Below are positions 1,806-13,314 of a stretch of DNA of 64,000 nt, piece by piece (positions within the stretch are counted from its first letter, which is position 1; each line of letters starts with the position of its first letter). The DNA comes from an uncultured Roseobacter sp. Its GTDB lineage: Bacteria; Pseudomonadota; Alphaproteobacteria; Rhodobacterales; Rhodobacteraceae. The stretch covers positions 434,001 through 498,000 of the forward strand of contig NZ_CANLNE010000001.1 in assembly GCF_947492555.1 (NCBI RefSeq), read 5' to 3'. The notes under the pieces are model-generated. The model saw only the letters and a list, made by a program, of their open reading frames with translations. It was not told where the DNA came from and ran no database searches. A program made the position numbers and the translations under genes.

Positions 1806-3785
1806 TCAGACGAGATCGGCGTCTGTCATGATTTCAACGAGGGCCGGCCCCTTGTGATCCAGCGCTTCCCTGATCGCCGCCTCCAAGTCGCCAGCATCCG
1901 TGACCTTGACCCCGTGACCACCGCAGAGCCGGGCAAAGGCGGCAAAACCCGGATTCTGCAGATCTGTTTCCCAAACCGGCCATTCGCCCGACCGCTGCTC
2001 CTTCGAGATCTTGCCCAGCTCGCCGTTGTGCAGCAGGATATGGGTGATATCCATGCCGTATTTGACGGCAGTGGTGAACTCCATCGGGTATTGGCCAAAA
2101 CCGCCATCACCAGAGATTGACACCACCTTGCAGTCCGTCAGATCGGGTTTGTCCTGGGTTGCCGCCCAAGCGCCCAAAGCGGCAGGCAGGCCAAAGCCGA
2201 TGGAGCCGAGATAGCCCGACATCAGCACCCGCTGCGTGCCCTTGGTTTCCAGATAGCGGCCAAAGGAATAGGTGTTGTTGCCCACGTCCACAGCGAAAAT
2301 GGTGTTCTCCGGCACCAGCCGCCCCAGCGCCTCGAAAATCGCAAAGGAATGGATGCCCTTGCCGAGATCTTCCGCCAGCCGCTGTTGCTTTTCACGCCGC
2401 CAGATGTCCCAGCGGTCGGCCAGTTCGGTGATCTGATCCACCGCATCGGGGTTTTTGTTATCCGCCTTTGCAATGGCATCGCAAAACGCACCCACATCCC
2501 CCCAGATCGGCAGGGCGACGGGGTGGAATTTGCCCAGCTGCATGTGTTCATGATCGACCTGGATGATCTCCTTGCTGCGCTCGATCCCGGTGTGATTGGA
2601 AAAGCTGGTGCCCAGCGCGATGATCAGATCGGCCTCGTTCATGAACCAGCTGGCGATGGGGGTGCCGGACCGGCCCAGCACGCCGCCCGCGCAGCGGTGA
2701 TCGTCCGGCAAGAGCCCCTTGGCCTTGAAGGTGGTCAGGACCGGTGTGCCGAGGGTTTCGGCCAATGTCGCGATCTCCTCGCGCACCGGATAGGCACCGT
2801 GCCCGACCACGATAATTGGGCGTTTCGCGGCCTTGATCATTGCCGCCGCCTTGTCGATCTCACTTTGCGCCGGGATCACGGGGGCTGCCGTCACCCGTCC
2901 CTCCGGTGCGCCAGCCGGTTTGCCCGAGGGGTTCGTCTGCACGTCGTCAGGGAAGATCAGATGCGCCACGTTCTGCTCCACAATCGCCGTCTTACAGGCC
3001 AGTGACGCCAGCTCCGCGTGGTTGGAGCTGCCGAGCACAGGTTGGGAAAAGCTGGTGACCGCCTGAAAGGCAGACAGAAGGTCGATGTCCTGAAACGCCC
3101 CCGGCCCCATGACCTGTGTCTGCACTTGTCCGGTCAGCGCCAGCACCGGGGCGCGGTCCACCTTGGCGTCCCACAGCCCGGTGAGCAGGTTCGTGGCCCC
3201 CGGCCCCGCAATGGTCAGGCAGGCCGCAGGTGTACCCGTCAGCTTGCCATAGGCAGAGGCCGCAAAGGCCGCCGCACCCTCGTGCCGGATGCCGAAGTAC
3301 GTCATCTTGCCATCCACCACGGCGCGCCGGATCGCGTCCGACAGCCCCAGATTGGAATGGCCCACCATGCCAAAAACCGATTGCACACCCCAGTTGCTGA
3401 GCGTCTCGACCATGACATCCGTGACCGTCCGTTCATGCGGCGGCTCCGGCGCTATACCTACGAAAATCTCGCCCTCGCGCACCTCCACCGGGTACATCTG
3501 CTGCCCGGTGTCCTCATGCCCGCCCGGCGGTTTGCCGGTCAGCGGGTCGAAATCCCAGCCGTGCCAGGGGCAGCGAATCCAGCATTTGTCGTCGATGCCT
3601 TTTTCGATGGAGCCTTCGCCCAAGGGCCCGCGCTGATGCGGGCAGTGGTTGTTCATCGCCGCCCATTGCCCGTCGAAATGCACAAGGCAGATTGACGTGG
3701 TGCGCGCGGTTACGGTCTTGACCCGGCCTTCGGGCAGGTCGTCGGTATGGCCAACGCTGATCCAGTCGAGGGTTTCGTCACTCAT
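1806..3785 (-). CDS. Rieske [2Fe-2S] - thiamine pyrophosphate enzyme fusion
   Basis: A 659-residue protein with two parts. Residues 1-112 form a Rieske-type ferredoxin domain with ligands C48-x-H50 and C72-x2-H75. Residues about 120-659 form a complete TPP-dependent enzyme of the pyruvate oxidase/acetolactate synthase family: catalytic Glu169 in the N-terminal Pyr domain (RHEGAAAFAASAYG), a central domain, and the Mg-TPP motif GDG at about 559 followed 26 residues later by HNGELG. The start at 3785 overlaps the upstream stop and has AGGAG before it; an upstream in-frame ATG at 3839 would add 18 residues inside the neighbouring gene. The TPP half suggests decarboxylation of a 2-oxo acid. The fused Rieske suggests electrons leave by an iron-sulfur route. 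Substrate unknown. It is the last gene of a five-gene overlapping operon. Confidence 0.85.
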   Translation of the reverse strand: MSDETLDWISVGHTDDLPEGRVKTVTARTTSICLVHFDGQWAAMNNHCPHQRGPLGEGSIEKGIDDKCWIRCPWHGWDFDPLTGKPPGGHEDTGQQMYPVEVREGEIFVGIAPEPPHERTVTDVMVETLSNWGVQSVFGMVGHSNLGLSDAIRRAVVDGKMTYFGIRHEGAAAFAASAYGKLTGTPAACLTIAGPGATNLLTGLWDAKVDRAPVLALTGQVQTQVMGPGAFQDIDLLSAFQAVTSFSQPVLGSSNHAELASLACKTAIVEQNVAHLIFPDDVQTNPSGKPAGAPEGRVTAAPVIPAQSEIDKAAAMIKAAKRPIIVVGHGAYPVREEIATLAETLGTPVLTTFKAKGLLPDDHRCAGGVLGRSGTPIASWFMNEADLIIALGTSFSNHTGIERSKEIIQVDHEHMQLGKFHPVALPIWGDVGAFCDAIAKADNKNPDAVDQITELADRWDIWRREKQQRLAEDLGKGIHSFAIFEALGRLVPENTIFAVDVGNNTYSFGRYLETKGTQRVLMSGYLGSIGFGLPAALGAWAATQDKPDLTDCKVVSISGDGGFGQYPMEFTTAVKYGMDITHILLHNGELGKISKEQRSGEWPVWETDLQNPGFAAFARLCGGHGVKVTDAGDLEAAIREALDHKGPALVEIMTDADLV

Positions 3786-4062
3786 TTGGCTCTCCTGTTT
3801 CAGATGGCGTGGTGAAGAAATCATAGAGCTTCTGGGCAAGGCTCAGGATGGCGAAACACCCCAGCGCCCAGATCAGCAGCTCGAACGGGGCGGCATTGGT
3901 GCCCCGCAGCCATTGGCCGACCAGACCGCCCTGCGGGCGCAGCACCTCAAGCCCGAAAAGGCCCGGGCGGTCCCAGAGCGACAGATACCAGAAGCGCGAG
4001 AGGTAAAAGAAGATCGCGGCCAAACAGCCGATCAGGATCAGCATCAGAATACGGCGCATCAT
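3778..4062 (-). CDS. Small membrane protein of the Rieske/TPP operon
   Basis: A 94-residue protein of unknown family. Residues about 4-24 form an N-terminal hydrophobic helix (ILMLILIGCLAAIFFYLSRFWYL) and a second helix covers about 60-80 (PFELLIWALGCFAILSLAQKLYDFF), leaving a short central loop that contains GLFGLEVLRPQGG. No cofactor ligands are obvious. It overlaps its upstream neighbour by 4 bp (ATGA) and the downstream Rieske-TPP gene by 8 bp, so a 1:1 coupling with those proteins is plausible. Its likely role is a membrane anchor or assembly partner, which is inference from position only. Confidence 0.7.
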   Translation of the reverse strand: MMRRILMLILIGCLAAIFFYLSRFWYLSLWDRPGLFGLEVLRPQGGLVGQWLRGTNAAPFELLIWALGCFAILSLAQKLYDFFTTPSETGEPNE

Positions 4063-4820
4063 TCCAGCACCTCAAGCGTATCAGGGTCCAGACGCAGCAC
4101 CAGCAGATCGCCGCGCCGTTCCACTTCACCTTCCAGCGAGACGAACTGCGCCACATAGTGATAGGCGCTTTCCGGCAGGTGGCCGCCGTCCGGCCCGGTG
4201 ATCAGCAGGAATTCCGAGCCGTCCACCGGCTGCGTCGAGACAAAGACGGGCGGCACCTTGCCCAGCAGGCAGAGATTGGCGCAGGCCTTATGCGCCAACC
4301 CACGCCCGGGCCGCATCGCGCCAGCCAGGCATTTGCCATCACAAATCTCGCCCGCGAGCTTCCAGCGGCCGAGTGGAATGGTCTCGAAGACCGGCACCTC
4401 CCCTTCAGCGGCTTGAAGGCCGTTGCGACCGCCCCGCACCTGCATCATGTCCAAAGATCCGCGTTCAAGCAGCACCCCGGACACCTGCGCCAATTGTCCC
4501 TCTAACGGGATGGCGCGGCTTTCCACGTTGGTCTTGCCGCCGCCTGCGAGCATCAGGGTATGCCCCGCCGGAATGCGCTCGTTGCCTTCGGTGACCCGCA
4601 AGAGCGGATAGGGGGTCAGCTCGACAACCCCGGTAACCGTTTGCCGCCCATAGTCGAACCGAAAAGCACCCTCGCCCGGATCGTCCTGCGCGATGCCAAG
4701 CGCCAGACCGAAACCCGCAAGCCCCGAGATAAACAGCACGCAAACCGCGAGCAGCAGACCCCGCAACGCCTTGGGCGCAGGCAGGTATCCAACGAAGAAG
4801 GGACGATCCTTGTCACTCAT
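4059..4820 (-). CDS. Membrane-anchored protein with paired-cysteine motif, Rieske/TPP operon
   Basis: 253 residues. One transmembrane helix lies near residues 20-43; the remainder is predicted soluble and probably periplasmic. The notable element is C160-x3-C164-x13-H178-x-C180-x3-C184, followed by a GKVPPVFV segment. The spacing suggests a metal or redox-cofactor site or two disulfides, and I recall similar Cys-motif segments in other bacterial exported proteins but cannot name the family. The middle region (70-150) is rich in beta-strand-like sequence. It overlaps both neighbours by ATGA junctions, which places it firmly inside the operon with the two Rieske proteins. A role in electron transfer or cofactor delivery is inference. 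Confidence 0.75.
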   Translation of the reverse strand: MSDKDRPFFVGYLPAPKALRGLLLAVCVLFISGLAGFGLALGIAQDDPGEGAFRFDYGRQTVTGVVELTPYPLLRVTEGNERIPAGHTLMLAGGGKTNVESRAIPLEGQLAQVSGVLLERGSLDMMQVRGGRNGLQAAEGEVPVFETIPLGRWKLAGEICDGKCLAGAMRPGRGLAHKACANLCLLGKVPPVFVSTQPVDGSEFLLITGPDGGHLPESAYHYVAQFVSLEGEVERRGDLLVLRLDPDTLEVLE

Positions 4821-5869
4821 GACGTCGCTCCTGCGGGTACCGGTTCCACGTAAGTCCCGGGCGGATTGGCGCGGGGGTCGACCAATACGCGGGTACCTTC
4901 GGTCTTCAGATTGTAGGTTGGGATTTTCTCGGTGAAGGGCGCGGGCGAGCGGCCGTTGGTGACGTCATACTGAAACCCGTGCCACGGGCAGGTCACCAGA
5001 CAGTCGATAATTTGCCCCTCTCCCAACGGCCCGTTCTGGTGCGCGCAGGCGTTGGAGATGGCGCTGAGCTTGCCCTCGTTGAGATAGACCGCCACGCGTT
5101 CGCCATTGGCCAACAGCTTAATCTTGGCAAAGCCCTCCTTCATTTCCGAGACATCGCACACCGGCACCCACTCGACGGCCTCGGACGCCAGCTCCTGATC
5201 CGCGCGGCGTTCTTTCAGAGCCGCTATCAGTTGCAAGATGCCCACGGCCGCCGCGCCGCCGATGAAAATCATCGTAAAGGCATGGTTCTGCTGATCCTGC
5301 AGGATGCCGAAGGAGACATGCGCCACCACCGAGAGATAGGCCGGGTAGATCAGGTAGTGGATGCGTTTCCAGACCGGCGGGCTGAGGAATTTCATCCAGA
5401 AATCATGGCTCGTTGCCGCCAGCAGGATCAGCGTGAAAAGTGCGAAAATCCCGAAGACCTCGAAGGGGAAGCCTGCAAGCTGGCCGTAGCTGGTATTCGC
5501 AAAGAGCAGCGCCTCGTACTTGTTCGACGACGAAAAGGCGAAGTACCAGTCCACGATATAGCCCGCATGGGTGATCGCCACGAAAACCGTCATCACCCCG
5601 AAGTGTCGCCGATTGTAGAGCAAGGGCAGGAACCGGGGATCAAGCCGCGCTAAGGGACCGATACAAAGGATCACCGTCAGCATGACAAAAGCACAGGCCC
5701 CGAAAGCACGGGCATTATGGACCTGCGGGTTGATCGGACGTTCGTGACTTAGAATGCCGGGACTGGCATAGAGGAAGACGTACAGGAATAGTCCCACCCC
5801 CAGCAACATCACCGCGTCATAGATGTACTTGTTCGGGTTCCACTGAACGGGGATGTATTTGACGCTCAT
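4817..5869 (-). CDS. Ferric reductase-like transmembrane protein with C-terminal Rieske domain
   Basis: 350 residues. The N-terminal two-thirds (about 15-220) hold six hydrophobic helices with several histidines placed in membrane segments (H89, H101, H155, H171, H184), as in cytochrome b-type ferric reductase-like or MsrQ-like domains. The C-terminus (about 235-335) is a Rieske domain with C275-x-H277 and C294-x2-H297. The ATG at 5869 was chosen because it overlaps the upstream stop (ATGA) and follows GGAGGTCAGCCA; the frame is open further upstream but only as antisense-like sequence inside the neighbour. Expected role: transfer of electrons between a membrane heme pair and a soluble [2Fe-2S] centre, paired with the Rieske-TPP enzyme in the same operon. 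Confidence 0.85.
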   Translation of the reverse strand: MSVKYIPVQWNPNKYIYDAVMLLGVGLFLYVFLYASPGILSHERPINPQVHNARAFGACAFVMLTVILCIGPLARLDPRFLPLLYNRRHFGVMTVFVAITHAGYIVDWYFAFSSSNKYEALLFANTSYGQLAGFPFEVFGIFALFTLILLAATSHDFWMKFLSPPVWKRIHYLIYPAYLSVVAHVSFGILQDQQNHAFTMIFIGGAAAVGILQLIAALKERRADQELASEAVEWVPVCDVSEMKEGFAKIKLLANGERVAVYLNEGKLSAISNACAHQNGPLGEGQIIDCLVTCPWHGFQYDVTNGRSPAPFTEKIPTYNLKTEGTRVLVDPRANPPGTYVEPVPAGATS

Positions 5870-6243
5870 TGGCTGACCTCCGCCGGGCCGGAGAGTTGCA
5901 CCGGCGCGATCTCTGCAGGCCATGTCTGGCGCAGGCTGAGCCCCGTCAGGATGATCAGGCAGATGCCGATGGGCAGGATCCACCCCACCGCGAAATGGGC
6001 CCGGCGCGGCGGATCATAGCGGCGCGCCCAGAGCTCGCGCCCGCTCTCATAGAGGTACCAGCGCCACAGCACCAAGGGCCAGATCACCAGAATACCGGGG
6101 ATCAGCAAGGGGCGGAAAATATAGGCGCCGCGCGCATCCTCGTCGATGCGGTCCATGCCGATGGTCAGGAAAATCGCGGCCACCACGGCACCGATGCTGC
6201 CCCAGATGCGCAGCCCCATCAGAATGGCTTCGGCCTGGTTCAT
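5866..6243 (-). CDS. Small membrane protein, first gene of the Rieske/TPP operon
   Basis: 125 residues with three likely membrane helices (about 10-30, 42-65 and 85-105). A conserved-looking loop DRIDEDARGAYIFRPLLIPG follows the first helix, and ESGRELWARRYDPPRRAHF precedes the third. The family is not recognised. It could be a small subunit of the cytochrome b-like protein encoded next, whose start codon overlaps its stop. The promoter of the operon should lie in 6244-6486, between this gene and the end of tctA; I see no unambiguous -35/-10 pair there. Confidence 0.7.
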   Translation of the reverse strand: MNQAEAILMGLRIWGSIGAVVAAIFLTIGMDRIDEDARGAYIFRPLLIPGILVIWPLVLWRWYLYESGRELWARRYDPPRRAHFAVGWILPIGICLIILTGLSLRQTWPAEIAPVQLSGPAEVSQ

Positions 6244-6486
6244 CGCGTTGCCCTGCCCGCTGCGATCTGTCCCTCATCGTGCTGTTGTTTCGGGGCGGAA
6301 AGGCAGGCAGGCATCTTGAACTCCGGTCTTTTGCTACGCAGTGGCGTTGTGCTGCGCGTATCCTGCCAAGCCTGCACGAAACCCGCGCCTGCCGCCAAAT
6401 CACAATTTCAGTTTACCTCGTGAACGCCAGCAAAATGCCGCCAATGTGGTTTTCCTGCGTCACGTGCCAACCGGCCCGCCCGCGAC

Positions 6487-8001
6487 CTAGTCCTTCACCT
6501 TTGGCGACAGGGCTGACGTACCTTTCACCGCCCGCACGCCTGCCCGCACAATCGCGACGATGGTCAGCAGGGTCATCGCCCAGAAGAACCACGTGATCGG
6601 GCCGCGCACCAGAATGGACGGGTCGCTGCCAGACATGAGCATGGACTGGCGGAAGTTATCCTCCAGCAGCGGGCCGAGGATGAAGGCGATGAGGAAGGGT
6701 GCTGCCGGGATATGATAGCGCACCATCATGAAACCGACCCAGCCCATCACGAACATCACGCCCACGTCAAAGATATTGTTGTTCACTGCAAAGACCCCGT
6801 AGATGCAGAGCACCAGTACGGCGGGGATCAGGATGCGCTTGGGGATGTCTGCTACGTATTTGAACCCGCGGATGGCGACGGTGCCGATCAGGAACAGGAA
6901 GACCGAACTGACGATCAGCCCGATGAAAAGCCCGTAGATGATGTCGACATTCAGGATGAACATCATCGGGCCGGGCTGCAGCCCGTGGATCATGAAGGCA
7001 CCGATGATGATGGCGGTGATCACATCGCCCGGCACGCCAAGCGCCAGAAGCGGGATCAGCGTGGCGCCAGCTACCCCGTTGTTACCGGCCTCGGAGGCTG
7101 CCACCCCTTCGACCTCGCCCTTGCCGAAGTTCTCCTTGTTTTTCGACGTGCGCCGCGCCTCAGAGTAACTGAGGAACGCCGAGGGGGCCGCCCCAATGCC
7201 GGGGATAGAGCCAAGGAACACACCGATGAAACTGCCCCGTACGATGGATTTGAAGCTGCGGCGGTAGTCGGCAAAGCTGACCCAGTTCTTGCCGAGGCTG
7301 CGCGCCGTGCCGACATGCGCCGTCGGATGCCAGACCATGGCCAGGATTTCCGGGATGGCGAAGAGGCCAATCAGCACGGCGATAAAATTCAGGCCCCCCA
7401 TCATATTCGGATCGCCGAAGGTGAAGCGGTTGGTACCGTAAACCAGATCGAGCCCGATGGTCGCCAACAGCAACCCGAGCAGCGCCGACAGCGCCCCGCG
7501 CAGCAGGCTTTCGCCCGAGACACCGGCGATGATGGTCAGGGAGAACAGGATGAGGGTGAAGAACTCCGGTGGCCCGAAGCTGAGCGCGAAGGACGCGAGC
7601 CAACCGGCAAAGAGAATGAGCGACAGGTTCGAGATGACATCCGCCGTACAGGAGGCCCAGAGCGCCATGCCCAGCGCGCGGCCTGCCTCACCCTTCTCGG
7701 CCATCGGGTAGCCGTCGAGGATCGTGGCGGAGGATGCAGGCGTGCCCGGTGTCTTGATCAGAATCGCCGGGATCGACCCGCCGAAAATGCCGCCCTTGTA
7801 GACCCCGAGCAGCAGCAGGATGCCGGTGATCGGTTGCATCGCGAAGGTAAAGGGCAGCGTCAGCGCCACCGCCATGGTCGCCGACATGCCGGGGATCGCG
7901 CCACCGATTACCCCAATGGCCACGCCCATGAAAAGCGCCAGAAAACTTTCGATGTTGCCCACAAGGCTGAGGCCGGCCGCGATGCTGTCCAGAAAGCTCA
8001 T
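6487..8001 (-). CDS. tctA: Tripartite tricarboxylate transporter, large permease subunit TctA
   Basis: 504 residues, the usual length for TctA, with about twelve membrane helices. Recognisable family segments include GVAIGVIGGAIPGMSATMAVALTLPFTF near the N-terminus, GGSIPAILIKTPGTPAS (the conserved substrate-site loop) and the second pseudo-repeat GSIPGIGAAPSAFLSY. The start at 8001 overlaps the tctB stop (ATGA); the reading frame stays open upstream but that part is the shadow of tctB. It forms the main transmembrane pore of a secondary carboxylate transporter served by the periplasmic TctC receptor. Substrate could be citrate or another di/tricarboxylate or aromatic acid; the sequence does not decide. 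Confidence 0.93.
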   Translation of the reverse strand: MSFLDSIAAGLSLVGNIESFLALFMGVAIGVIGGAIPGMSATMAVALTLPFTFAMQPITGILLLLGVYKGGIFGGSIPAILIKTPGTPASSATILDGYPMAEKGEAGRALGMALWASCTADVISNLSLILFAGWLASFALSFGPPEFFTLILFSLTIIAGVSGESLLRGALSALLGLLLATIGLDLVYGTNRFTFGDPNMMGGLNFIAVLIGLFAIPEILAMVWHPTAHVGTARSLGKNWVSFADYRRSFKSIVRGSFIGVFLGSIPGIGAAPSAFLSYSEARRTSKNKENFGKGEVEGVAASEAGNNGVAGATLIPLLALGVPGDVITAIIIGAFMIHGLQPGPMMFILNVDIIYGLFIGLIVSSVFLFLIGTVAIRGFKYVADIPKRILIPAVLVLCIYGVFAVNNNIFDVGVMFVMGWVGFMMVRYHIPAAPFLIAFILGPLLEDNFRQSMLMSGSDPSILVRGPITWFFWAMTLLTIVAIVRAGVRAVKGTSALSPKVKD

Positions 8002-8489
8002 GGCAACCTCAGGATATTGCCCTGCGGGATCGCGACCCCGGCGACATGGGCAAAGAATGCATAGAGCACCAGTGGGATAATTACCGCACAGACCAGAGCC
8101 GTCACCGGATGGCGCGTGCGCACCAGAAAGGCAGTTGCGGCGAAGATCAGCATGGAGGTCAACACCATGCCCAGACGCGGCAAGGCAATCATCGTCAGCC
8201 CCATGATCACCGCCATGCCAGCGAGCCGCAGCCACGCCGCAGTCGGATCGTCACTGCGCGCGTTGACGGCCGCGCCCGTGTCCTCAAGTCGCAGTCCCGA
8301 AAACACCAGCCCGAGCCCGGCCAGACCGGTGAATCCGGCCAAAGCATAGGGCCAGAACAGCGGCGACAGGATGATGTTGCCCACGTTACTGGGCGAAGAC
8401 ACCCAGGCAGGAATGGCATAGACGACCAGAAAAACCGCTGCCAGCAGCGCGCCGAAGCCCAGCCGCAATTGCACCTGCCTTTGTGTCAT
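7998..8489 (-). CDS. tctB: Tripartite tricarboxylate transporter, small permease subunit TctB
   Basis: 163 residues with four hydrophobic helices, the standard size and layout of TctB proteins. It follows a strong Shine-Dalgarno sequence (GGGAGGAAGG) and overlaps tctA by 4 bp. Only about 95 bp separate it from tctC, and that gap contains a strong hairpin that could lower expression of the permease genes relative to the receptor. Confidence 0.88.
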   Translation of the reverse strand: MTQRQVQLRLGFGALLAAVFLVVYAIPAWVSSPSNVGNIILSPLFWPYALAGFTGLAGLGLVFSGLRLEDTGAAVNARSDDPTAAWLRLAGMAVIMGLTMIALPRLGMVLTSMLIFAATAFLVRTRHPVTALVCAVIIPLVLYAFFAHVAGVAIPQGNILRLP

Positions 8490-8523
8490 CCTTCCTCCCC
8501 TCGCCCGTTCCGGGTCTCATGAA

Positions 8524-8554
8524 AAACGCCGGGCAGAGACAGTGCCCGGCGTTT
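8524..8554 (-). terminator. Hairpin between tctC and tctB, likely attenuator
   Basis: Perfect 11-bp arms AAACGCCGGGC (8524-8534) and GCCCGGCGTTT (8544-8554) around a 9-nt loop. Read on the minus strand the stem is followed by a short T run, so it resembles a leaky terminator within the tctC-tctB-tctA operon. Confidence 0.75.
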
Positions 8555-8583
8555 CCGTCTCGCGCGCATCGCGGTCCTTGGAC

Positions 8584-9558
8584 CTAGCCTTCGATCCTCA
8601 TGCCCAGATCGTCAACAAGTTTCCGAAAGGTATTGTACTGCCCTTCGATGAAGGCATTCGCATCCTCGGGCGACATCAGTTCGATCACCGACCCCCGTGC
8701 GGTCATCTTTTCGAGGAACTCGGGATCTTCCGTCGCGGCCGCCATCCACGCGCCCCATTTGTCGGCGACATCATCCGGCAGGCCGTCCGGCCCGGCAATC
8801 CCGGTCCAGCCAACCAGCTGGTGCAACGCCGGTTTGCCCAAATCAGCCGCCGTAGGCACGTCGAACCCCGCCACCGGCTCTGCCGTGGTGACCATCAGCG
8901 GCACCAGTTGCTTGTTGGCCACAAAGCTCGCGATGGCGGAGGAATTGGTGCACAGGAATGTCGCCGTGCCGTTCAATACAGCCGTCGCAGCCGCCCCACC
9001 GCCCTTTTGCGGAATATGCGTGGTTTTGGTCAGCGGTTCCTCGACGCCGAACTCCGACAGCACCATGACGGCGGCCAGATGCAGCAAGGAACCGACACCG
9101 GAAGAGGAATAGGTCACCCCGCCCTCGTCCACCTTGGCGATCAGATCTTCCATCGAGGTGATGCCAGACGACGGGCTGACCGCGCAGGCCACCGGGTTGA
9201 TCTCATAGACGGTGACAAAGCGGAAATCATCCAGCGTATAAGGCAGCGTGGCTTTCATCGCCGGGTTCACCGAATGCGAGCCCACCCGCGCGAAGAGCAT
9301 CGTATAGCCGTCTTCCTTGGCGTTCTGCACCGCAACGGAGCCTGTCGCCCCGCCCGCACCGGTGACATTCGCCATCACCAGCGGCTTGCCCACCGCAGCG
9401 CCCAGAGGCTCAGCAATTGTACGGGCGGAGATGTCGGTCGCCCCGCCTGCCCCGTATGGAATGACCATGTTAATCGGGCGTTCGGGGTACTCCGCCAGGG
9501 CGGCTCCCGCCAGGCCAAGGCTCAAGGCGCAGACCGCGCCCAATGTTCTGAATGTCAT
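8584..9558 (-). CDS. tctC: Tripartite tricarboxylate transporter receptor TctC (Bug family)
   Basis: 324 residues with a Sec signal peptide (LGAVCALSLGLAGAALA, cleaved near residue 22). The mature N-terminus YPERPINMVIPYGAGGATDISAR is the hallmark of Bug/TctC periplasmic receptors, with the PYGAGG loop that contacts carboxylate ligands. It is the first gene of the tct operon, preceded by GGAGGAAAACG, and is divergently transcribed from a LysR regulator that shares a 149-bp intergenic region. It captures a carboxylate in the periplasm and delivers it to TctAB. The ligand is unknown; the downstream SDH/fumarase genes make a C4-C6 carboxylate plausible. Confidence 0.92.
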   Translation of the reverse strand: MTFRTLGAVCALSLGLAGAALAEYPERPINMVIPYGAGGATDISARTIAEPLGAAVGKPLVMANVTGAGGATGSVAVQNAKEDGYTMLFARVGSHSVNPAMKATLPYTLDDFRFVTVYEINPVACAVSPSSGITSMEDLIAKVDEGGVTYSSSGVGSLLHLAAVMVLSEFGVEEPLTKTTHIPQKGGGAAATAVLNGTATFLCTNSSAIASFVANKQLVPLMVTTAEPVAGFDVPTAADLGKPALHQLVGWTGIAGPDGLPDDVADKWGAWMAAATEDPEFLEKMTARGSVIELMSPEDANAFIEGQYNTFRKLVDDLGMRIEG

Positions 9559-9622
9559 CGTTTTCCTCCCAGTCGTGTCTTATTTCCGGACCTCCCCGAG
9601 CAAAGCCGACAGCGCCCTTGAC

Positions 9623-9692
9623 AATTGGTAACGTTAAGACATGCTTCATAGAAGTAATAATAAATTACAGAATTGGTAAGTTCTGCTGACAA
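9623..9692. promoter_or_regulatory. Divergent tctC/lysR promoter region with AATTGGTAA direct repeats
   Basis: Two copies of AATTGGTAA lie at 9623-9631 and 9671-9679. A minus-strand promoter for tctC is readable: -35 TTGTCA (complement of 9687-9692), 17-bp spacer, -10 TGTAAT (complement of 9664-9669). TTGACA at 9618-9623 could be the -35 for the LysR gene, though its -10 is weak. The second repeat sits inside the tctC promoter spacer, as expected for a LysR-family binding site. Confidence 0.55.
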
Positions 9693-9707
9693 AAAGGATG
9701 CTGCTGG

Positions 9708-10619
9708 ATGTCGATACGCACGCTGCGAACGCTGATCGCGGTGCATGATCACAAGACCTTCAGCGCGGCCGCAGATGCGGTTTACGTCACCCACGCCGCC
9801 GTCAGTCAGCAGATGCGCGCGCTGGAGGAAAACTGGGGCATCCAGCTTTTTGACCGTTCCAAACGCACGCCGGAACTGACACCGCTGGGCCGCGCGCTGG
9901 TGGCCAAGGCCCGCGATGTCGTGCGCGCCTACGACCAGATGCTGCCTTCCGTGCTGGGCGAAAGTGGTGTCAGCGGCGAAGTTTCTCTGGGCGCCTTGCC
10001 CACGACGCTGACCACGATGGTGCCGTCGGCGATTTCCATGCTGGTGGACGCCTACCCGGAGGTGCGCGTGCGTCTCTTTCCGGGGCTGACAATACAGTTG
10101 GTATCCCAACTCGAACGCGGGGCCTTGGACGCCGCGATCATCTCACGGCCCCAGCTGGTGCCCGCCGGCCTGGAGTTTCTGGAGATTGCCGAGGAACCGC
10201 TGCAACTGCTGGCCTCGCGCGATGTGCAGAGCGATGACCCCTTTGAGTTGCTGGCCAAGCACCCGTTCATCCGCTTCAACCGCGATGCGGTGGTTGGGCA
10301 CATGATCGAAAGCTGGCTGCAGAAAAAGAACATCCGCGTCAGCGAAGCCATGGAATTGGACGGACTGGAGGCAATCTCCAGCATGGTGTTTGCCAACCTC
10401 GGTGTGGCGATTGCGCCGAAACGGGCGGTCAAGACCAACAACCCCCTGCCGCTGAAACGCCTGTCGCTGGGGGAGGACGCGCCGGTCCGGCGGCTGGGCC
10501 TCGCCTTTCCGCGCGACACGGCGCACGGGCCGATCCTGACGGAACTGCACAGCGTTTGCCTGCGGTCGGTTCAGATCGGCGCCTTCGGCGCGCAGACAAG
10601 TACAGAACCCGCTGCATGA
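9708..10619 (+). CDS. LysR-family transcriptional regulator of the tct locus
   Basis: 303 residues. The N-terminal winged helix-turn-helix covers about residues 1-60 (TLRTLIAVHDHKTFSAAADAVYVTHAAVSQQMRALEENWG, typical LysR), followed by a periplasmic-binding-protein-like effector domain from about 90 onward. Divergent arrangement with tctC is the classical layout for a LysR protein controlling its neighbour and itself, with a carboxylate as likely co-inducer. Its stop overlaps the start of the downstream TSUP permease (ATGA), so the two are co-expressed. Confidence 0.9.
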   Translation: MSIRTLRTLIAVHDHKTFSAAADAVYVTHAAVSQQMRALEENWGIQLFDRSKRTPELTPLGRALVAKARDVVRAYDQMLPSVLGESGVSGEVSLGALPTTLTTMVPSAISMLVDAYPEVRVRLFPGLTIQLVSQLERGALDAAIISRPQLVPAGLEFLEIAEEPLQLLASRDVQSDDPFELLAKHPFIRFNRDAVVGHMIESWLQKKNIRVSEAMELDGLEAISSMVFANLGVAIAPKRAVKTNNPLPLKRLSLGEDAPVRRLGLAFPRDTAHGPILTELHSVCLRSVQIGAFGAQTSTEPAA

Positions 10620-11359
10620 GCGCCGAAGACATGATCTACCTGGTGATCGGCGCGCTGGCGGGCGGTTTCATCAACGGCTTGGCCGGGTTCGGCACCTCGC
10701 TCTTTGCCCTGGGGTTTTTCCTCACCATCATGCCCGCCGTCGAAGCCGTCGCCATCATCGTGGTGATCTCGGTGGTCAGCGGGCTCCAAGGCCTCTGGGT
10801 CGTGCGCGGTGCACTGACACAAAACCCGCGCCGGTTGGCCCGGTTTCTTCTGCCTGCGATCATCGGCATTCCACTGGGTGTCGCCTCTCTCAAGCAGATC
10901 GACGTGACCGCGCTCAAACTGCTCGTCGCGTTTTTCCTGATCCTTTACGGCGGATTTTTCACGCTCCGCCGCACCTTGCCAAAAATCGACCACCCGACCC
11001 CGATTATGGATTGCAGCGTTGGGTTTCTGGGCGGCGTCCTGGGCGGTGCGGCCTCTCTGTCCGGCGCGTTGCCAACGATGTGGTGCTCCATGCGGGCCTG
11101 GCCCAAATATGAAACCCGCGCCGTGCTGCAACCGTTTAACGTGACCGTGCTGGCCCTGACCGCCGTGATGCTCGCCTGGAACGGCGCCTATCACAGGCAG
11201 ACCTTGCTGCACCTCACCGTTGCGCTGCCCACGGCCATCGTGGCGGCGCAAATCGGCATTGTCGTGTTCCGCAGGCTTGAGGACGAGACCTTTCGCCGGT
11301 TGCTGATCGCAGTGTGCTTTATCTCCGGCACGGTCCTACTGCTGCGCGAGCTGTTCTGA
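10616..11359 (+). CDS. TSUP-family (TauE/SafE) membrane permease
   Basis: 247 residues, seven to eight hydrophobic helices in two similar halves; GALAGGFINGLAGFGTSLFALGF near the N-terminus and GFLGGVLGGAASLSGALPTMWCSMR in the middle are the paired glycine-rich repeats of the 4-toluene sulfonate uptake permease/TauE family. The ATG at 10616 overlaps the LysR stop. Members export sulfite, sulfoacetate or organic acids; here coupling to a LysR gene next to TctABC suggests transport of a related carboxylate or of a breakdown product. Substrate is not decidable from sequence. Confidence 0.88.
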   Translation: MSAEDMIYLVIGALAGGFINGLAGFGTSLFALGFFLTIMPAVEAVAIIVVISVVSGLQGLWVVRGALTQNPRRLARFLLPAIIGIPLGVASLKQIDVTALKLLVAFFLILYGGFFTLRRTLPKIDHPTPIMDCSVGFLGGVLGGAASLSGALPTMWCSMRAWPKYETRAVLQPFNVTVLALTAVMLAWNGAYHRQTLLHLTVALPTAIVAAQIGIVVFRRLEDETFRRLLIAVCFISGTVLLLRELF

Positions 11360-11366
11360 CGCGGAG

Positions 11367-12035
11367 CTAACCGATCACCTCGTCAGACCGGTCGTCCGTC
11401 TCGCCGTAGCGCTTGAGCACGGCGGGCCGCGTGCCTTCATAGACCTTATCGAGATTTTGCACGATCTTGGCATTCTCGCGCTCGAACAGGCAGTCGCCGT
11501 CAAGGTTTGAGGCCACGATGAACGGGCCCATACGCCGCGCCCGGATCACCCACATCGCCTGGGCGATGCCCAGCTCCTCATGCCAATGCACCGCCTCTAC
11601 CGTCTCCACCCCGCGCCCCAGCAGCGCGCCGGTGCCGTACCCAACCGTGGACAGATAGACCGCCCCGTTGGGCACGAAGTATTCCTTGTAATCCTTGGAC
11701 GACATGCCCCCCTTGCCGATGATCAGCCGGGCACCGGTCTTGGCCATCCATTCCGGCAACCACTTGGCAAAGCGAAAACTGGCTGTCGCCGTGACAGCCC
11801 CCAGATCGAATGATCCATCCTCTCGGATCACTGCGGCGGGAGAGCAATGGAAATTCGCGGCACTTTGCGAGGGCAGTTCCATGGGAATGTTGGCCTTGTC
11901 CTCCAGCGCGCGCATATAAACACCTTCGCGCGCGGTGTAGATCAACCCATCAAGGTAGACGATATCGCCCAGACGCAGATCAGCAATGGCCTCTGGGGTT
12001 GGCGTCGTGGACAGCGTGACCTCGCGGATTTTCAT
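11367..12035 (-). CDS. Class I fumarate hydratase/tartrate dehydratase, beta subunit
   Basis: 222 residues, matching the C-terminal (beta) domain of iron-sulfur class I fumarases and TtdB. The region IIGKGGMSSKDYKEYFVPNGAVYLSTVGYGTGALLG carries the conserved GKGGM and substrate-loop features. The start at 12035 overlaps the alpha-subunit stop (ATGA). With the alpha subunit it should catalyse hydration of fumarate to malate, or dehydration of a related hydroxy acid such as tartrate, using a [4Fe-4S] cluster. It is the last gene of the SDH/fumarase operon, which makes fumarate the most economical substrate. Confidence 0.88.
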   Translation of the reverse strand: MKIREVTLSTTPTPEAIADLRLGDIVYLDGLIYTAREGVYMRALEDKANIPMELPSQSAANFHCSPAAVIREDGSFDLGAVTATASFRFAKWLPEWMAKTGARLIIGKGGMSSKDYKEYFVPNGAVYLSTVGYGTGALLGRGVETVEAVHWHEELGIAQAMWVIRARRMGPFIVASNLDGDCLFERENAKIVQNLDKVYEGTRPAVLKRYGETDDRSDEVIG

Positions 12036-12988
12036 TCTGCAGCCTCCCGCGCCGGTTCCCAGTCTATGGTCTCGCGGCGCTGATAGTCGGTAAACCAATC
12101 GGGGTCTGTGCGATGCTCGACGCGGCCATCGGGAAAAACACGTGCAACGGCCCGGCGCGACGACAGGCAGAACGCATGCACAGACATCTGCATACCGCCA
12201 GTGTGGCAATATCCGACTTCAATATTGCAGTCTATCACCATGTTTTTACCAACAAATCCCATCGCCCCCATACCGATTGAATTGCCCAGTTCCTTGAACT
12301 CATCCTCCATCGCCGCAATCTTCGGATCGGAGTTCCTGCTGCCCACCGTGCGCAGGACCGAGGCGCGCTTGCCCAGCACCATGCAGGTGTCTTTCGATCC
12401 CCCGAGTCCGATGCCGATGATCGCGGGTTGGCACGCGAGCCCGCGTTTGCCGAAGGCGACGAGACTGTCGAGGTAGAACCGCTTGATCCCCTGAATGCCG
12501 TCAGACGGAAACAGCATCCGGTAATCCGTGCCGAAAAGCCCGCCCTTGTGTACAGTGATCAGATCAATCCACTCCCCTTCCGGCTCGAACCCGTATTCAA
12601 TCTCCGGCGCGCCGATGCCGACGTTGTTGTTGTGATCCGTACGCCAGAGCGGGTGCACCCGGTTGGGCCGTAAAGGCACGCCCGTTGTCGCATTGGCCGT
12701 GGCCCGACGTAGGGCGGCCTCCAACGCAATGGGGCCGCCTTCGATCCGCGCGTCATTGCCCATCTTCACGAACCAGCGCGGCACGCCCGTGTCGCCACAC
12801 ATCGCGCGCCTGTCTTCCTTCGCAGCCTCGTAATTCTCCAGCATCGCCTGCAGAACGAAGGACGAAAGATCGCCATCTTCCGTTGCCGCCGCAGCGCGCA
12901 GCCCGTCGAGATAATCCTGAGGGATCTCGATTGCCGCCTTGTCCATCAGGGTTTCAGCCGTCTTTTGAATGAGATCGATGGAAATCAT
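12032..12988 (-). CDS. Class I fumarate hydratase/tartrate dehydratase, alpha subunit
   Basis: 318 residues. The family cysteines that bind the [4Fe-4S] cluster are visible: one in RRAMCGDTGVP (near residue 65), one in LGGSKDTCMVLGK and one in VGYCHTGGMQ. The start at 12988 overlaps the stop of the small upstream gene (ATGA) and follows GGGAGGATTTC. Together with the beta subunit it forms a two-subunit class I hydro-lyase. In the same operon sits a succinate dehydrogenase-like complex that would supply fumarate, so the pair would convert succinate to malate. Confidence 0.9.
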   Translation of the reverse strand: MISIDLIQKTAETLMDKAAIEIPQDYLDGLRAAAATEDGDLSSFVLQAMLENYEAAKEDRRAMCGDTGVPRWFVKMGNDARIEGGPIALEAALRRATANATTGVPLRPNRVHPLWRTDHNNNVGIGAPEIEYGFEPEGEWIDLITVHKGGLFGTDYRMLFPSDGIQGIKRFYLDSLVAFGKRGLACQPAIIGIGLGGSKDTCMVLGKRASVLRTVGSRNSDPKIAAMEDEFKELGNSIGMGAMGFVGKNMVIDCNIEVGYCHTGGMQMSVHAFCLSSRRAVARVFPDGRVEHRTDPDWFTDYQRRETIDWEPAREAAE

Positions 12989-13314
12989 CTGAAATCCTCC
13001 CGGTTGCGCGACACCAGCCCCCACATTTCATCCTCACCGGACCCGGAGAACGCGACCGCCCCCGCCCGGATCAACGCCATGCGCAGCGCATCGTCGTTTT
13101 CGAACCCGCGCAGGTGGTGCTTGATCTTCTTGAGGCTGCGTTTCTGGTAGCTCTGGTTTTCCAGCAGATGCCGGATCGCGGCTTCGACAGAATAATCCAG
13201 CTTCATCTCTTCGCGTAGCTTCTCAAGATCGTTCCGGGCGGACATGCGGGCGGTGACAAAGGCCAGCACGATGCTGCACGCCAGCGTAAGGAATGCGACA
13301 ACGGCCTCGCTCAT
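12985..13314 (-). CDS. Small membrane-anchored charged protein between sdhA and fumarase genes
   Basis: 109 residues of unrecognised family. A single N-terminal helix (about residues 4-23) is followed by a charged, helix-rich cytoplasmic-type segment (RNDLEKLREEMKLDYSVEAAIRHLLENQ) and a basic stretch QKRSLKKIKHHLRGF. It overlaps sdhA upstream and the fumarase alpha gene downstream, both by ATGA, so it is certainly part of the operon. It might tether or assemble the enzymes at the membrane; this is inference from position. Confidence 0.7.
   Translation of the reverse strand: MSEAVVAFLTLACSIVLAFVTARMSARNDLEKLREEMKLDYSVEAAIRHLLENQSYQKRSLKKIKHHLRGFENDDALRMALIRAGAVAFSGSGEDEMWGLVSRNREDFR

Follow-up and report, generated by a model that had tools for sequence, protein, structure and literature searches.

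The DNA analysed here (the window) is a stretch of 64,000 nucleotides from an uncultured Roseobacter sp. (positions 434,001 to 498,000 of contig NZ_CANLNE010000001.1, assembly GCF_947492555.1). At 1806 to 6243 it carries an operon of five overlapping genes, here named A to E and all on the minus strand, that may encode a membrane electron conduit together with a dehydrogenase feeding it. Gene A (5866..6243) encodes a small membrane protein of 125 amino acids with three hydrophobic segments, gene B (4817..5869) a 350-residue membrane protein joining a ferric reductase domain (FRD) to a C-terminal Rieske domain, gene C (4059..4820) a protein held in the membrane by an N-terminal anchor and otherwise soluble and rich in beta structure, gene D (3778..4062) a second small membrane protein (94 amino acids, two hydrophobic segments) and gene E (1806..3785) a pyruvate-oxidase-like Rieske-thiamine diphosphate (ThDP) enzyme of 659 amino acids. 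The A/B, B/C and C/D overlaps are of 4 bp (all ATGA) and the D/E overlap is of 8 bp (ATGAGTGA). A first-pass annotation had described five overlapping genes with two Rieske proteins among their products, and both observations were confirmed, the Rieske domains of B and E being intact; a third Rieske protein, F, was found in related loci of other genomes.

Both parts of B were recognised by Pfam: the FRD transmembrane part (5327..5701, residues 57-181; Ferric_reduct, PF01794) at 45.8 bits against a cut-off of 28, and the Rieske [2Fe-2S] domain (4913..5173, residues 233-319, with C275-x-H277 and C294-x2-H297) at 59.5 bits against a cut-off of 20.3. In 73 B sequences R87, R88, H89, H101, H155, H171 and H184, the last lying just past the end of the transmembrane part, were invariant, as were the four Rieske ligands. 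In an alignment of B with an MsrQ-like protein encoded by this genome, R87/R88, H101, H171 and H184 fell on R80/R81, H94, H152 and H165, so that an RRxxG motif and three histidines are common to the two proteins and H89 is extra in B. NOX proteins have four heme histidines, the first of which is replaced by arginine in YedZ and STEAP, according to the part of PMC3591440 available to us. B shows the MsrQ/YedZ pattern, with an arginine in transmembrane helix 3 in place of the first heme histidine, one histidine in the same helix and two in helix 5. Since H89 is an additional invariant histidine, a second heme may be present. The score of B with the MsrQ equivalog model NF003831 was 34.1 bits, under the cut-off of 130.

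The predicted model of B (mean predicted local distance difference test score, pLDDT, of 80.6, with weak stretches) consists of six long helical stretches and the Rieske domain; five of the six helices were also detected in a hydropathy scan. A fold search with this model returned Rieske ferredoxins as the best matches (E-value about 1e-5) and, more weakly, STEAP1, STEAP2, STEAP4, DUOX1, NOX2 and NOX5 (E-values of 7e-4 to 4e-3, query TM-scores of 0.34-0.43). The even number of helices (six in the model) and a modest charge bias suggest that the Rieske domain faces the cytoplasm. Judged from its sequence, B is probably a b-heme protein, with H89, H101, H171 and H184 as candidate ligands. The earlier proposal of a membrane electron-transfer unit containing a heme-bearing protein with paired histidines agrees with these invariant residues and with the STEAP/NOX-like predicted fold. 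The separate MsrQ-like gene of this genome adjoins an open reading frame (ORF) that, by eye, is MsrP-like.

E combines an N-terminal Rieske domain (3528..3764, residues 8-86, C48-x-H50 and C72-x2-H75; 63.0 bits) with the TPP_enzyme N, M and C domains (1830..3428, residues 120-652; 112-123 bits), in line with its initial description as a Rieske-TPP enzyme. Its best NCBIfam models were pyruvate oxidases, all with scores below cut-off (PRK08611, 375.5 against 742; PRK09124, 290.8 against 792), and its best solved relative was Escherichia coli PoxB. Acetolactate synthases scored only slightly lower, most markedly when the PDB was searched. Similarity to PoxB extended over residues 119-654 and included the central domain, which is conserved in sequence. 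The alignment stopped at residue 527 of the 572 of PoxB, five residues short of the end of E, and the C-terminal tail of PoxB, which we take to be membrane-binding, is missing. The ThDP motifs are present: E169, in the sequence RHE, aligned with the PoxB glutamate that presumably activates ThDP, and G559-D560-G561 with N587 correspond to what we take to be the ThDP-binding motif GDG...N. K592 stands where PoxB has phenylalanine and is kept in eight aligned bacterial E proteins, four archaeal relatives and one mycobacterial relative, which suggests that the substrate may be other than pyruvate. The same archaeal and mycobacterial relatives keep the Rieske ligands, and the ligand motif C-x-H ... 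C-x2-H was intact in 90/90 B, 44/44 E and 50/50 F sequences.

The predicted model of C (mean pLDDT 90.5) has one long N-terminal helix followed by a beta-rich part, hydropathy gave one membrane segment, and the charge bias suggests that the soluble part lies outside the membrane. Within this part, a Cys/His motif (4251..4352) comprises C160, C164, M169, H177, C180 and C184, all invariant in 82 sequences; the four cysteines and one histidine form a possible metal or redox site. C had no Pfam match at an E-value of 0.05 or less and no NCBIfam match at 0.01 or less. A function deduced from its fold was rejected since no reliable solved relative was found by sequence (best E-value 0.026) or by fold (best E-value 0.012); many of the weak fold matches were OB-fold proteins. 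A distant relative of the second half of C (E-value 1.5e-4), with a secreted-like start by eye, is encoded in the same genome two genes from SCO1/SenC, which we take to be a copper-handling family; from this neighbourhood, a copper or thiol redox site in C is a guess. The locus of this relative (L171:1435-2995, own genome C1, about 811 kb) encodes in a row the small secreted-looking protein, in which the C-type motif keeps three of its four cysteines, a second Cys-containing secreted-looking protein and SCO1/SenC. A similar trio was seen by eye in L175, and these trios are possibly copper-related.

By hydropathy, A has three membrane segments and D two. Neither reached a Pfam cut-off or had an NCBIfam match at an E-value of 0.01 or less; the sole Pfam similarity of A was to cytochrome-b561, below threshold, and D had no Pfam match at 0.05 or less. 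In two Rhizobium plasmids (L026, L027) and in L048-L050, A is reduced to about 70 amino acids, and a second small ORF is annotated between A and B in both Rhizobium records, so A may be split into two in this group.

Recurrence of the overlaps was determined with script-chosen starts in 25 loci outside this genome, of which 23 come from the same family and two are the Rhizobium plasmids. The 4-bp overlap was kept between A and B in 17 of the 25 loci, between B and C in 18 and between C and D in 14 of the 15 with a recognised D; an A-B gap of 151-174 bp was found in five of the 25. D and E overlapped in just three of the six loci having both genes. Since the overlaps within A-D recur and the D/E overlap often does not, A-D is the conserved coupled block, to which E is attached. 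A lies upstream of B in all 25 loci, and the order A-B-C is found in the window, in 23 of the 24 other family-sample loci and in both Rhizobium plasmids; the 24th, L051, ends at a contig edge at C.

F, the other Rieske protein associated with this block, has 536 amino acids and consists of an N-terminal Rieske domain and a Glu_synthase flavin mononucleotide (FMN) domain. It covers profile positions 865-1156 of the 1490 in glutamate synthase, without the glutaminase part, keeps K-x2-Q-G-A-K in the glutamate-synthase region and contains C-x5-C-x4-C, a predicted 3Fe-4S site. The fullest layout, F-A-B-C-D-E, thus has three Rieske proteins. F occupies in sister loci L053, L056 and L125 the position of the window gap between tctA and A (6244..6486), which carries none here, and no F was found in this genome at an E-value of 1e-100 or less among the best four of nine candidates, which were those scored. 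The data did not support a shared ancestry for the Rieske domains in E and F, the mean identity over 150 random pairs being 23% for E-F, 21% for B-F and 34% for B-E.

C was present in 25 of 295 genomes of the same family, own genome included. A pattern scan of a species-genome collection, from which the best 80 of 273 C relatives were taken and which leans to close relatives, gave a second set; the two sets, pooled minus ten duplicates and L062 (where no C frame was mapped), made 95 distinct C loci, of which 84 with enough flank were counted and 11 left out. Gene maps came from longest-frame ORF picking, a procedure that overlooks small genes and gets some frames wrong, and the E and F counts were set by length and identity thresholds. 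B was found in 83 of the 84 loci, E directly downstream in 32 and F directly upstream of A in 33. Both E and F were present in 24 loci, E only in eight, F only in nine and neither in 43 (Fisher p 2e-7, which overstates the significance because the loci are related). Borderline cases were L128, counted as E only and having a shorter F match, L087, counted as F only and having an E fragment, and L115, with E on the opposite strand.

Among the 295 genomes, full-length E (E-value of 1e-150 or less) occurred in 16, and F-like proteins (1e-100 or less) in 49. Of these, 27 were counted as Rieske-fused, with a match spanning the Rieske part (partial or in two pieces in G098, G157 and G184); the other 22 matched from about residue 130 onward only. 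C and E occurred together in 14 genomes, C and F in 15 and E and F in 14, each excess having p < 1e-11, again an overstatement since the genomes are related. A test for co-evolution by correlating distances over 24 loci (r 0.64-0.91 for six pairs, reached by 0 of 2000 permutations) was not counted as evidence of contact because shared descent yields the same result. Beyond the family, the C alignment matched 17 of 385 genomes in a class sample and 10 of 398 in a phylum sample, all of them in the same class; the matches of G668 in the former and of G904, G935 and G996 in the latter were weak and partial.

The first-pass annotation had suggested that all five genes form one complex, an idea to be dropped if they were not conserved as a group. 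That grouping held for A-D and failed for E, which lies downstream in 32 of 84 loci; A-D are also found without E or F, and E and F without C. The five genes are therefore not an obligate complex.

We tentatively favour, with slightly less than even confidence, the interpretation that A-D form a transmembrane electron conduit resembling MsrQ. Soluble dehydrogenases tagged with a Rieske domain would feed it on the cytoplasmic side, and C would be its periplasmic exit. The direct basis of this interpretation is the domain content, the intact ligand motifs, the conserved gene order, the co-occurrence and the predicted fold of B. A-D would span the membrane in the manner of the MsrQ/STEAP/NOX (FRD) proteins, the C-terminal Rieske [2Fe-2S] domain of B serving as the cytoplasmic donor site in place of a flavin reductase. 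E, presumably soluble, cytoplasmic and containing flavin adenine dinucleotide (FAD), would carry out the oxidative decarboxylation of a 2-oxo acid and, on physical contact with B, pass electrons from its own Rieske domain to that of B, from there to the presumed b heme or hemes and on to the periplasmic side. C would then deliver them through its four-Cys/one-His site to a periplasmic or respiratory acceptor. F would act as a second, interchangeable client, alternative or additional to E, and is missing from the present genome.

Several known systems resemble parts of this proposal. In the MsrPQ (YedYZ) system MsrQ is a membrane heme protein that joins the cytoplasm to a periplasmic redox partner, handing electrons outward to MsrP (as described in the part of PMC5676040 at hand). 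Like MsrQ, B has the FRD fold; unlike MsrQ, it adds a C-terminal Rieske domain and the invariant H89 and scores below the MsrQ cut-off. The A-E operon also differs in having no molybdoenzyme, and no MsrP is found among the annotated neighbours in the window. B resembles the NOX, ferric reductase and STEAP proteins of the FRD superfamily in joining a six-helix heme-type domain to a C-terminal donor domain, which in B is Rieske and not the FAD/NADPH (reduced nicotinamide adenine dinucleotide phosphate) domain of the long NOX and ferric reductase form. E shares three ThDP-family domains with PoxB (pyruvate:quinone oxidoreductase) and the pyruvate oxidases, but differs from PoxB in its added N-terminal Rieske domain, the missing C-terminal tail and Lys592 for phenylalanine. 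F similarly has the Glu_synthase domain and C-x5-C-x4-C spacing of the FMN domain of the glutamate synthase alpha subunit, with an N-terminal Rieske domain in place of the glutaminase part. A 2013 listing of domain combinations names Rieske as one module joined to FRD in bacteria (model M4), and the part of this source available to us gives no function for the fusion (PMC3591440). A full-text search of open PubMed Central papers did not bring up the A-D module, the C protein or the Rieske-ThDP and Rieske-glutamate-synthase fusions by name in titles or the starts of abstracts, which leaves their absence from print unproven. FRD-Rieske proteins and MsrQ-like conduits are already known, and the operon looks like an undescribed system of a recognisable kind.

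Several findings weigh against a conduit served by E and F. The p-values for the association of E, F and A-D overstate its significance owing to the kinship of loci and genomes, and E falls under every pyruvate-oxidase cut-off. Ten loci, the window and nine from Roseobacter-titled records, share a neighbourhood of tct transporter and fumarase-like genes; L053, L056 and L125 have F, A-D and E, the window, L052, L055 and L058 have A-D and E, and three (L054, L057, L086) keep A-D with both E and F absent. At the genome level, eight of the 25 genomes with C have neither E nor Rieske-fused F, and 10 of the 27 with Rieske-fused F have neither C nor E. A Rieske domain search covered six of those eight: in G055 the Rieske set was B, two oxygenase-size frames and one of PetA size, in G083 it was B, two PetA-size frames and one frame of 614 amino acids (names inferred from size in both), and G004, G139, G187 and G215 had 7-17 matches each, some in long frames. 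E and F are neighbours in G126 and G266, two genomes in which the search gave no C, and in G001, G240, G125 and G171 they form a pair at a distance from A-D. In the plasmid collection, E was found at 57-60% identity in Halorarius, Halorubrum, Haloferax and Salinirubellus and at 51% in Mycobacteroides, and F on three of the four E-bearing haloarchaeal records (61%); B and C were found in five Rhizobium plasmids only. E and F have a history of their own, untied to A-D.

The occurrence of E and F without C, and of C without E and F, is what the main rival explanation would predict, namely two systems, with A-D a stand-alone unit using a general cytoplasmic donor and E and F a two-enzyme system of their own, sometimes with a cation/proton antiporter, that merely travels with A-D in Rhodobacteraceae. 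In agreement with it, 17 of the 63 loci that have E or F also have a PF00999-type antiporter no more than 1 kb away from one of them, and none of the other 52 loci has one (the 17 being L059, L061, L063, L074, L076, L077, L080, L083, L089, L095, L097, L114, L118, L129, L134, L137 and L138). However, C accompanies E in 14 of the 16 genomes with E, and in 24 of 84 loci E and F take up fixed places on opposite sides of A-D, a recurring arrangement that would be difficult to account for if the genes were not functionally linked. We consider two unconnected systems possible but rather unlikely.

Electrons might also flow in the reverse direction: B would accept them from the periplasm or from quinol and, through its Rieske domain, supply those of F and E, for instance for a reductive amination of a 2-oxo acid by F. 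Glutamate-synthase chemistry normally consumes electrons, and the corresponding region is retained in F, including K-x2-Q-G-A-K and C-x5-C-x4-C. On the other hand, PoxB and the pyruvate oxidases, the closest relatives of E, release electrons. MsrPQ draws on the respiratory chain (PMC5449189, in the part available), which would suit reverse flow, but its MsrQ sends electrons outward to MsrP (PMC5676040, likewise). Reverse flow is on balance improbable. Still less probable, to the point of being very improbable, is that E is a non-redox ThDP enzyme, of the carboligase type or another, with its Rieske domain serving for redox sensing or as a structural element: the scores of acetolactate synthases close behind the pyruvate oxidases and the conserved K592 are consistent with it, but the Rieske ligand motif is kept in all 44 E sequences examined and in the archaeal and mycobacterial relatives.

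Returning to the conduit fed by Rieske-tagged enzymes, a more general form of it would make A-D a modular electron bus, a membrane heme conduit whose cytoplasmic Rieske socket accepts E and F as interchangeable clients that acquired their Rieske domains independently. C would be a new periplasmic Cys/His redox protein, the system possibly tied to cation/proton exchange, and E and F old fusions common to Alphaproteobacteria and haloarchaea. We regard this wider picture as doubtful, though possible.

Cation/proton antiporters were also seen near E or F in other settings. In L081:789-6733, F is preceded by Mrp-type Na+/H+ antiporter genes, of which Pfam confirmed four. In Halorarius E is followed by a sodium:proton antiporter, and Mycobacteroides has a cation:proton antiporter in the vicinity of E. 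Annotations in the E/F regions of haloarchaeal plasmids L179, L180, L181 and L182 include, in combinations that vary, mercuric reductase, DsrE, rhodanese, pirin, TauE and redoxins, so that these regions look like an island for redox or sulfur stress. Pirin-family genes lie near E on L180 and L182, and recur near A-D in the distant alphaproteobacterial loci L048, L049 and L050, where one cluster member was confirmed by Pfam.

Upstream of the operon, at 6487-13024, the window carries genes for a TctABC transporter, divergent LysR and TauE-like genes and a two-subunit fumarase/tartrate-dehydratase-like enzyme, common to the nine Roseobacter loci. Directly downstream, at 3-1725, are tungstate-type ABC transporter genes, presumably tupB, tupC and a cut tupA, with close copies in the nine Roseobacter loci only; tupC-like ATPases elsewhere matched at only 22-34%. 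The TctABC, fumarase-like, LysR and tungstate-type transport genes were dropped as clues to the substrate since they are kept with A-E in these nine loci only. An O-acetylhomoserine sulfhydrylase-like gene and its run of neighbours reflected mostly genus-level synteny in Tateyamaria and were set aside, as were neighbours annotated singly (patatin/MFS, pirin, DUF1611, arginase, SCP2, BKACE, outer-membrane efflux and others), which formed no consistent pathway.

If the conduit interpretation is correct, the operon would represent an uncharacterised route by which 2-oxo acids, and perhaps amino acids, are oxidised into the membrane chain, from Rieske domain to Rieske domain and bypassing reduced nicotinamide adenine dinucleotide. 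The Rieske-FRD architecture of the 2013 listing (PMC3591440) would thereby acquire a function, C would define a new kind of periplasmic redox protein, and two unusual Rieske fusions common to bacteria and archaea would be explained. The route would be a patchy one, present in 25 of 295 genomes of the Rhodobacteraceae and in some other Alphaproteobacteria.

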